Translations under genes and position numbers: made by a program | In this document: piece by piece, positions 7,546 to 10,023 of the stretch | Layout: every line of letters starts with the position of its first letter | Numbering within the stretch: position 1 is the stretch's first letter | Assembly: GCA_016928995.1 (NCBI GenBank) | Contig: JAFGJS010000128.1 | Coordinates: forward strand, 1 to 10,243 | Length of the DNA stretch: 10,243 bases | Source of the DNA: Candidatus Sumerlaeota bacterium | Lineage (GTDB): Bacteria; Sumerlaeota; Sumerlaeia; JAFGJS01 | Direction: 5' to 3' | Notes under the pieces: model-generated | Told to the model about the DNA's origin: nothing | Database searches by the model: none | Seen by the model: only the letters and a program-made list of their open reading frames with translations

Positions 7546-8643
7546 CTAAAGCAATTCCTCGCGACCTTGCGCTTTGAGCGCGGCGACGATCTCCTTCACG
7601 CGTTGAGCGTCCGAACGCCGGCAGATCATCACGGCGTCCGCGCTGCTGACAACAATCAAATCCTCCACGCCATATGCAGCGATCATCGGTGCGCCGTTTT
7701 TTATATCGCTGTAGAGGATGTTGTTTTTCGCCTCCAGCGTCAGCGCGTTGCCCACAATCACATTGCCCGCGCCATCCGGCTCGTTGATCCGCTCCGCGGC
7801 GTCCCAGGCGCCGATGTCGTCCCATTCAAACGTGGAGCGCACGCATGCCACGTTGCTGGCGCGCTCCATCACGCCGTAGTCGATGGATGTTTTTTCCAAT
7901 CTTGGAAACACTTCGCGCACCGCGTCGCCGCCGTCGCTGTTGACGATACCCTCGCGCATCTTGCGCACGCCTTCCGCGAGTTCCGGCATGGATTGCTCGA
8001 ACGCGCGAAACAGCGTCGCGTTGCTCCAGAAAAACATGCCGCTGTTCCAGAGATAGTTTCCCGCATCGAGTAACGATTGCGCCGTTTCCGCATCCGGCTT
8101 TTCGCAGAAACGTTTCACGCGGTTGATCCGCGCGCCGTTGCACTCGTAAAGATCTTCGCCAGTCTCGAGATAGCCGAAGCCCGTGTCCGGACGCGTGGGC
8201 ACGATGCCGATCGTCACGAGATTTTCGCCCTTCTCCGCCTCGGTATACGCCGCGTCCAGGTCGCTGCGGAAGCGCTCGAGCTTGCCGATGAAATGGTCCG
8301 CCGTGAGCACGCCCATCACCGGGGCGTTTTCGCCTTCGAATCCGGTGTGCGCCAGCGCCAGACCCAGGCACGGCGCGGTGTTGCGCGGCTCTGGTTCGCC
8401 GATCACGTTCTCCGGCGGCAGTTCCGGCAGCTCTTCGCGGATGCGTTGCGTCAGCCGCTCCGCCGTCAGGATGTAAAGATCCTCAGGAGCGATCAGTGAT
8501 CCGATCAATCGCTTTACGGAGACTCGCAGCATGGATTCTGCGCCTGCGAGCGGCAGCAGTTGCTTGGGCGAATCCCGCCGGCTGACCGGCCAGAAGCGCT
8601 CGCCAGCCCCGCCGGCCATGATCACTGCAATCCTTCGAGCCAT
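7546..8643 (-). CDS. manC: Mannose-1-phosphate guanylyltransferase
   Basis: Cytoplasmic enzyme making GDP-mannose from mannose 1-phosphate and GTP, the donor for mannose, fucose and rhamnose units in surface glycans. The 365 residues open with a nucleotidyltransferase signature: GGAGERFWPVSRRDSPKQ at about 11-28, which holds the GTP-binding glycines and the conserved R and K. Further family motifs are LTADHFI (usually PADH), GFGYLETG, FCEKPDAETA, YLWNSGMFFW, TSIDYGVMER and FEWDDIGAWD. The length fits the short single-domain form. The phosphomannose isomerase domain of long bifunctional enzymes is absent, so that activity must come from another gene. ATG at 8643 has a weak AGGG eight bases before it. 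It converges on the exporter gene and is not in its operon. The family call is firm; which glycan uses the product is unknown. Confidence 0.95.
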   Translation of the reverse strand: MARRIAVIMAGGAGERFWPVSRRDSPKQLLPLAGAESMLRVSVKRLIGSLIAPEDLYILTAERLTQRIREELPELPPENVIGEPEPRNTAPCLGLALAHTGFEGENAPVMGVLTADHFIGKLERFRSDLDAAYTEAEKGENLVTIGIVPTRPDTGFGYLETGEDLYECNGARINRVKRFCEKPDAETAQSLLDAGNYLWNSGMFFWSNATLFRAFEQSMPELAEGVRKMREGIVNSDGGDAVREVFPRLEKTSIDYGVMERASNVACVRSTFEWDDIGAWDAAERINEPDGAGNVIVGNALTLEAKNNILYSDIKNGAPMIAAYGVEDLIVVSSADAVMICRRSDAQRVKEIVAALKAQGREELL

Positions 8644-8680
8644 TCATTTATCCCTAGTCTGTGATTTACAGTATTCATGC

Positions 8681-8709
8681 AAGGTATCGGTATGATTTAC
8701 TATAGTCAA
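8681..8709 (-). promoter_or_regulatory. Candidate promoter for the guanylyltransferase gene
   Basis: On the minus strand TTGACT (8704-8709, 5 of 6 to the -35 consensus) is followed after 17 bases by TACCTT (8681-8686, only 3 of 6 to the -10). It lies about 40 bases before the start codon, in an AT-rich stretch. The octamer GTAAATCA occurs twice here (minus strand, 8693-8700 and 8662-8669), 31 bases apart. The first copy is within the spacer, so these may be regulator half-sites. Confidence 0.3.
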
Positions 8710-8743
8710 GCCACAGTGTTTATTCAGCATCACGCCGAAGAAC

Positions 8744-8826
8744 ATCTCCATATCCCCAGCATCTCCCCATCACCAATAAATGAAAGATATTATCAGGAGA
8801 TAGGGAGATGCTGGGGATATGGAGAT
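8744..8826. repeat. Long inverted repeat: 31-base arms, 21-base loop
   Basis: The arms at 8744-8774 and 8796-8826 are reverse complements at 29 of 31 positions, the outer 24 being perfect. Read on the minus strand, one mismatch becomes a G-U pair and only one U-U mismatch remains. On the plus strand both are true mismatches. Within each arm the motif ATCTCC recurs, giving a roughly two-fold internal repeat. It starts 29 bases after the stop of the minus-strand zinc-ribbon gene, so it may end or protect that transcript, but no U-run follows it. No target-site duplication is evident at its ends. It could also be a REP/MITE-type dispersed element, which one window cannot settle. Confidence 0.9.
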
Positions 8827-8854
8827 AAGCAATAGAATTTACGGATTCCATGAA

Positions 8855-9145
8855 TCAATGCCGCAAAAAGCGTTTCTTCATCAGCCGGTGGATTTCCTTA
8901 CGGCATTTGTCGCAGAGCGTGAATTGATAATCCTCGTAGACTTCGTCCGCGGCTTCCTCGACCTGATGCTCGCTCATGTTTTGCATCTGCTCAACCATCG
9001 CCTTGAGCTGCGCCATGTGATCCTGCTCGAGGTCTTCCTCAGAGAATTCCAGCGCGCCGGCTTCGGCGAACAGGCTGATGCGCAAGGTGAACGCTTGCAG
9101 CTTCGGCTCAAGCTCGCCCCCGCAATAATCGCAATGCCGTCCCAC
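8855..9145 (-). CDS. Small zinc-ribbon protein with two CxxC pairs, function unknown
   Basis: A 96-residue protein starting with GTG at 9145. AAGGAG lies eight bases before it, and the in-between ATG is in another frame. CDYC (residues 5-8) and CDKC (78-81) could together bind one zinc, bringing the two ends of the protein close. Between them is an acidic, mostly helical stretch (about 34-72) rich in Glu, Gln, Met and Asp, including EDLEQDHMAQLKAMVEQM. The C-terminus KEIHRLMKKRFLRH is basic. It follows the MEMO-family gene by 20 bases on the same strand and should be co-transcribed. There is no signal peptide or membrane segment, so it is probably cytoplasmic. The fold suggests binding to a protein or nucleic acid rather than an enzyme. 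I do not recognise a named family. Confidence 0.75.
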   Translation of the reverse strand: MGRHCDYCGGELEPKLQAFTLRISLFAEAGALEFSEEDLEQDHMAQLKAMVEQMQNMSEHQVEEAADEVYEDYQFTLCDKCRKEIHRLMKKRFLRH

Positions 9146-9165: not shown

Positions 9166-10023
9166 TCAGGCGAACATCGCGGCGGCGTAACCCACGACGT
9201 AGCCGTGGTGAGATGGCGATACATCGGCGCTGGTGCTTGTATTCAGCACGCGGCCGCTCTCCGCGCCCATCAGACGCGCCAGGCGCATCACCAGAGTGAT
9301 CGGACACGATCCGCACGCCGAAAATTCCCGGCCGGCGATGCCATCGTCAAACGCATCCGGATTGAACGCTTCCACGGCGCGGGTGAACGCCTCGGTCTGA
9401 CGCCGGCACTCGTCCAAGTCATCGCCATGATACAGATCGGAGCTGGCCACGAGCAGCGTGGAATCGTTCGCGTTTTCGCCGTCCAATTCCTGCATCGTGT
9501 CGTGGATCGCGCGAGCGAGCTCTTCCGCTTCTTCGCTGGACAACTTGCCCACCAGCATCGGAGCCAGGGTGAATTCGTCATTATGCAATGATTGCACAAA
9601 GGGAACCTGCACTTCCAGCGAGTGCTCCGTCACGTCCGCCGAATCACTGAGTTGCACCAGGCCGGAGCGCTGTTCCAATCGTTCGCAAAACGCCCTGTCG
9701 ATCATCGCGGCGCCTAGCGGCGTTTCATACGAATCGCCGTCGTAGATCGTCGCGCCTGGAAAAAAATCATGATGACTCGGCGCCGCGATCAACACGCGCG
9801 CATAGCGCTGGCCTTCCGCCGAAGCGTATGCGTGCGCCGCCGTCCGTCCGCTGTAGATATAGCCTGCATGCGGACAAATCAGCGCGATCGGCTTCACATC
9901 CTTCAACGATGGCGAGAGTGTATCGCGCGTCGATCGAAGATATTCGCGGACATCCTGCGCCAGCTCGCGCGGATTGCTTGGGTAGAACCGTCCGGCCTGA
10001 GCCGGTTTGCGTGTACGGCGCAT
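9166..10023 (-). CDS. amrB: AmmeMemoRadiSam system protein B (MEMO family)
   Basis: A 285-residue protein of the MEMO family, related in fold to class III extradiol dioxygenases. The family opening RKPAQAGRFYPSNPREL is at about 5-21. Likely metal or active-site residues are H52 in CPHAGYIYSG, H84/H85 in PSHHDF and C237 in SACGSCPI, matching the His-His-Cys set described for human MEMO1. Other conserved motifs are ETPLG, EHSLEVQVPFVQ (133-144), ASSDLYH (193-199) and the C-terminal GYVVGYAAA. The length is usual for the family. ATG at 10023 has AAGGAG eight bases before it. No AMMECR1-like or radical SAM partner gene is in the window, though the partial upstream gene cannot be judged. A zinc-ribbon gene follows 20 bases downstream. 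The biochemical role of bacterial MEMO proteins is not settled. Confidence 0.93.
   Translation of the reverse strand: MRRTRKPAQAGRFYPSNPRELAQDVREYLRSTRDTLSPSLKDVKPIALICPHAGYIYSGRTAAHAYASAEGQRYARVLIAAPSHHDFFPGATIYDGDSYETPLGAAMIDRAFCERLEQRSGLVQLSDSADVTEHSLEVQVPFVQSLHNDEFTLAPMLVGKLSSEEAEELARAIHDTMQELDGENANDSTLLVASSDLYHGDDLDECRRQTEAFTRAVEAFNPDAFDDGIAGREFSACGSCPITLVMRLARLMGAESGRVLNTSTSADVSPSHHGYVVGYAAAMFA

Follow-up and report, generated by a model that had tools for sequence, protein, structure and literature searches.

A GGRGAT stem-loop in a gene junction of a Candidatus Sumerlaeota bacterium, a probable gene-less member of a proposed class of word-array cassettes

Genomic context

The window, that is, the whole stretch of DNA analyzed here (10,243 bp), is an entire contig of a 4.55-Mb assembly with 161 contigs. 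A same-strand run of genes that starts with a MEMO-family protein is interrupted by a long hairpin (Table 1), which lies between co-directional minus-strand genes shortly past the stop codon of the zinc-ribbon-like gene, the kind of position in which the cassettes described below are found. Relatives of the zinc-ribbon gene are present in 29 of 39 genomes of the class. No orthologous MEMO/zinc-ribbon/ManC junction was found in the class, the relatives detected having neither a MEMO nor a ManC gene beside the zinc-ribbon gene. No target-site duplication was seen by eye at the ends of the hairpin, where the flanks read GAAGAAC and AAGCAAT.

Table 1. Features of the junction that holds the hairpin
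Feature	Position	Strand	Remarks
Mannose-1-phosphate guanylyltransferase-like protein (ManC)	7546-8643	-	Downstream gene of the junction; start 100 nt after the hairpin
Left arm	8744-8774		GGRGAT in reverse, as ATCYCC words at 8744, 8752 and 8761; spacing 8 and 9 nt
Loop	8775-8795		21 nt, without ORF
Right arm	8796-8826		GGRGAT words at 8796, 8804, 8813 and 8821; spacing 8, 9 and 8 nt; 29/31 complementary to the left arm
Zinc-ribbon-like protein, 96 aa	8855-9145	-	Upstream gene of the junction; stop 28 nt before the hairpin
MEMO-family protein (AmmeMemoRadiSam B)	9166-10023	-	Start of the same-strand run

Sequence and folding of the hairpin

The hairpin is the longest inverted repeat of high identity in the window. 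As stated in a preliminary description of this DNA, its arms are 31 nt long and pair at 29 positions. The complementarity is 94% and the spacing 21 nt. The two differing positions, 8768 and 8772, give C.A and A.A on the plus strand and G.U and U.U on the minus strand, so the differences are indeed milder in the minus-strand RNA, as had been noted. The minimum free energy is -52.8 kcal/mol on the plus strand and -61.5 kcal/mol on the minus strand (z about -10 for both), and none of the shuffled sequences folded as low on either strand. A scan of positions 8600-8900 agreed with the reported lack of a U-run: neither a terminator-like U-run nor a terminator match, as expected of an intrinsic terminator, was detected near the stem, and no sigma-70-like promoter match was detected in the same interval. 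In Rfam no family attained the gathering score, and all matches listed were generic microRNA hairpins. When 1.07 Mb of the own genome was scanned with the same thresholds, 50 inverted repeats were found, among which the hairpin ranks ninth, against one mirror (non-complement) control; because of this ratio, a chance origin of the hairpin is excluded.

The GGRGAT word family in the own genome

The preliminary description had suggested a dispersed palindromic element, to be recognized by many BLASTN copies. BLASTN detected no second close copy in the own genome, and among 40 relatives only a 19-nt match in one; the suggestion therefore fails as regards conserved copies and holds in kind, since both the word and the architecture are dispersed. 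The partial matches within the genome have in common the word GGRGAT, repeated every 8-9 nt. The pattern GGRGATN{1,4}GGRGATN{1,4}GGRGAT gave 15 matches at seven loci of the own genome, and the reversed control pattern gave none. GGRGAT arrays form gene-less inverted repeats at C97 and C76 and at C40 enclose, in inverted orientation, an intact GxxExxY gene (TIGR04256, PDDEXK_3). GGRGAT arrays belong to the GxxExxY type. The arm order is not the same throughout: the ATCTCC arm comes first in the window, whichever strand is read, whereas the GGRGAT arm comes first in the C40 cassette and in most siblings, and a C40-like cassette that simply lost its gene therefore fails as an origin. The hairpin shares with the cassettes a pair of inverted arrays built from a single short word; its 21-nt loop encloses no GxxExxY or S23 gene, and it is accordingly filed as a gene-less form and not as an autonomous one.

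Word arrays around GxxExxY and S23 genes

The locus at C40 pointed to a wider regularity, namely that a short, cassette-specific word, arranged in inverted arrays, often encloses GxxExxY and 23S-IVP/S23 genes. The own-genome set (n = 16) comprised eight PDDEXK_3 matches and eight of nine 23S-IVP/S23 genes (PF05635), the one omitted coming from a broken gene whose other half was counted. Most of their flanks carry inverted short-word arrays, and the word differs almost each time. The inverted match between a gene's own upstream and downstream flanks was higher than every cross-pairing in 12 of the 16. In named genomes that span many phyla, 32 of 77 GxxExxY loci exceeded the 99th percentile of cross-pairings (medians 18.5 own versus 8.5), and 45 failed this strict test; S23 loci from the class passed in 16 of 22 cases (medians 19.25 own versus 8.0). 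Word length follows the resident protein, being 7 nt for S23 (24 of 32 arms) and 8-9 nt for GxxExxY (52 of 64 arms, with a period of 8 or 9); the right arm in the window has a period of 8.

At L086:18515-18984, a cassette built of CGCAGAGA words surrounds a small, hydrophobic protein for which no Pfam match passed the cut-off, possibly a third type of cargo.

Position of the cassettes, and filled and empty junctions

Of the 23 sites of the own-genome sample that could be classified, 20 have co-directional genes on their two sides, and the distances to the stop codon and to the next start are often 4-30 nt. This is a modest excess (p = 0.012 against the 63% of intergenic base pairs that are co-directional, p = 0.06 against the 71% of junctions). 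In named genomes, where the flanking genes were named from their translations and not by family search, cassettes are present between trpE and trpG, nuoM and nuoN, hisH and hisF, and mutA and mutB, and another apparently splits a metH. Among 30 genomes of one genus, 28 have a gap of -8 to 20 nt between mutA and mutB, and in the other two the gap is filled by GxxExxY cassettes of about 560 and 630 nt, which differ from each other in word and protein; a third GxxExxY cassette occupies the mutA-mutB junction of a Bacteroidaceae genome. Comparison of filled with empty junctions shows that the cassette is gained or lost as a unit, by whichever route.

The metH gene of a Prosthecobacter assembly (L173:1-4385) appears to be split by its GxxExxY cassette at a domain boundary. 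In an Omnitrophota assembly (L151:780-4355), a single his-type operon carries two GxxExxY cassettes, one between hisH and hisF and one after hisF.

Gene-less relatives

Gene-less versions of the cassettes are common. About 17 of the 50 inverted repeats found in the own genome were gene-less word hairpins by inspection, with words that include GAGCAA, ACAACGGC, CGCAAAGA and GTTCAGAG. In the surroundings of the named GxxExxY loci, a sample of 1.21 Mb, which is biased toward cassette neighborhoods, contained 92 inverted repeats, 50 of them word-like, against two mirror controls. At least four gene-less GGRGAT hairpins with loops of about 20-30 nt are present in G008, a relative from the same class and another family. 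In five hairpins of G008, a hairpin's own arms carry matching letters at the A/G position of the word in 19 of 20 cases, against 70% across hairpins, a weak signal of covariation that was reached by 6 of 120 permutations and that the spacer letters do not show.

The preliminary description had read the strand bias of the mismatches as a sign that a folded minus-strand transcript is kept. This does not extend to the siblings: of 18 gene-less word hairpins, two or three of which (in G008) have an ambiguous transcript strand, eight were more stable on the strand presumed to be transcribed (Wilcoxon p = 0.91).

Several other hairpin sets were observed in the own genome. Gene-less hairpins of the GAGCAA word, whose loops resemble one another and measure about 92 nt, occur at L065:6481-6624, L075:5737-5872, L078:2760-2903, L106:9683-9826 and L114:4765-4924 and are the most MITE-like set of the genome; a second set, with a common loop of about 30 nt, occurs at L068:5314 and L108:15240. 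A REP-like palindrome family, CCGCGACCGTSAGGGAGCGGCCC, has no word structure (L062:1820-1908, L074:234-320, L088:7218-7300, L118:4363-4435 and L087:2782-2861).

Interpretation and comparison with known systems

We think, with somewhat better than even confidence, that the hairpin is the gene-less form of a stem-loop cassette from a dispersed class. In this class, two facing arrays of a word of only 6-9 nt form a long stem, often around one small GxxExxY (PDDEXK_3) or 23S-IVP/S23 gene, and members sit in gene junctions just past a stop codon. The copy in the window would be a non-autonomous derivative of the GxxExxY type, its gene lost or never present, and its insertion, which breaks no reading frame, would be tolerated for that reason. 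In the minus-strand transcript the hairpin would fold into a double-stranded stem, a putative substrate of RNase III that is probably cut; the MEMO/zinc-ribbon mRNA would therefore be separated from the ManC mRNA. Persistence of the hairpin would be selfish or neutral and would not reflect a dedicated regulatory role.

The closest known parallel is the intervening sequence (IVS) of 23S rRNA. Such sequences without an ORF occur in Salmonella. Mobility of the cassettes and their processing by RNase III are proposed here on the model of Coxiella, whose 23S IVS contains an S23 ORF preceded by three tandem heptamers, has 28-bp terminal inverted repeats, and is excised by RNase III (PMC4990558). Like the IVS of Coxiella and Leptospira, the cassettes are stem-loop inserts with or without an S23 (PF05635) ORF, they contain tandem words as do the Coxiella heptamers before the ORF, and they are inserted where continuity is not needed (PMC4990558). 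The hairpin differs in that it lies in a junction of protein genes and not in a 23S rRNA helix, has no ORF, and carries its GGRGAT words at 8-9 nt; excision by RNase III is established for Coxiella, whereas for the window a long stem is predicted. RNase III is also known to cut mRNA at the terminal inverted repeats of Correia elements (PMC10969869).

Foremost among the alternatives is a functional element at the mRNA 3' end, either a protector of the MEMO/zinc-ribbon message or a bidirectional terminator or insulator, with the words incidental. The close spacing to the stop codon upstream, the 100 nt left before the next start and the free energy of -61.5 kcal/mol on the transcript strand would suit it. 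At least two of the GGRGAT hairpins examined in G008 sit between convergent genes, a position for which a 3'-end role is just as plausible, and such a role therefore keeps some standing. It is nevertheless unlikely: neither a U-run nor a terminator match was detected, the siblings show no preference for the transcript strand, and the same architecture both encloses genes and occurs inside operons, where a terminator would do harm. The role as 3'-end protector or small RNA that had been proposed for the hairpin finds no specific support.

Marginally less probable is an ordinary MITE: a DNA transposon reduced by deletion, whose transposase would lie elsewhere and whose terminal inverted repeats (TIRs) would be the arms. 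The hairpin resembles MITEs (Correia, ERIC, BrickBuilt, Chunjie) in being a short, dispersed, intergenic palindrome with terminal inverted repeats and no transposase gene, MITEs too being found within operons, and MITE-like families such as the GAGCAA hairpins with the loop of about 92 nt exist in the same genome. It departs from them in that its arms are internally repetitive and made of a word that varies by copy, unlike the TIRs recognized by a transposase. No target-site duplication was seen and no transposase parent was found; the word at the ends is shared with a GxxExxY cassette and not with a known transposase, and the genes enclosed by such arrays are GxxExxY and S23, which are not known transposases. 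The earlier label "REP/MITE" falls for a REP of the RAYT type and is doubtful for a MITE, for which size, inverted ends and intergenic position fit and the target site does not.

Two simple-repeat tracts grown by slippage and facing each other by chance are a very improbable explanation. The words are short and single unpaired arrays do exist (C38), but inverted repeats exceed mirror repeats 50 to 1 in the own genome and 92 to 2 around the named loci, own-flank matches lie far above cross-flank matches, and a fixed junction either has a cassette of about 500 nt or lacks it. The least credible alternative of all is a REP palindrome mobilized by RAYT (Y1 tyrosine transposase). The hairpin is likewise an extragenic palindrome near gene ends, Y1-transposase-like genes (by translation) lie in a RAYT-like arrangement between long inverted repeats at L101:14118-14772 and L104:16550-17365, and a separate REP-like palindrome family is present in the genome. 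However, the repeats at the Y1-like genes are rich in GC and lack the word-array structure, the gene that the GGRGAT arrays enclose is a GxxExxY gene, no Y1 gene stands beside the arrays examined, and the hairpin has neither a shared sequence family nor a second close copy.

The preferred reading, a gene-less cassette, may be taken further. More tentatively, at slightly less than even chances, the cassettes form a widespread and undescribed class of mobile stem-loop elements in protein-gene junctions, with arms made of copy-specific words whose length follows the resident protein, and of which the 23S IVS are merely the best-known members. Within this broader reading, the association of word length with the resident protein implies that the S23 and GxxExxY proteins may act on the arrays or help to build them. 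GxxExxY and 23S-IVP/S23 proteins are common, and we know of no function for them; only two of the 5.39 million papers searched name GxxExxY. Inverted word arrays, in many cases within operons, and a word length tied to the protein give them a testable role, in an IVS-like or transposon-like element at gene junctions. No description of such word-array cassettes was found in open papers, subscription journals and bioRxiv being outside the scope of the search. The class would explain many unannotated hairpins, including that of the window, and offers an origin for the intervening sequences of rRNA.

The left end of the contig also carries word arrays, of GAGCAR hexamers at 3-23 and of TTCGAY hexamers at 99-175, which are probably part of another such element, cut by the contig end.
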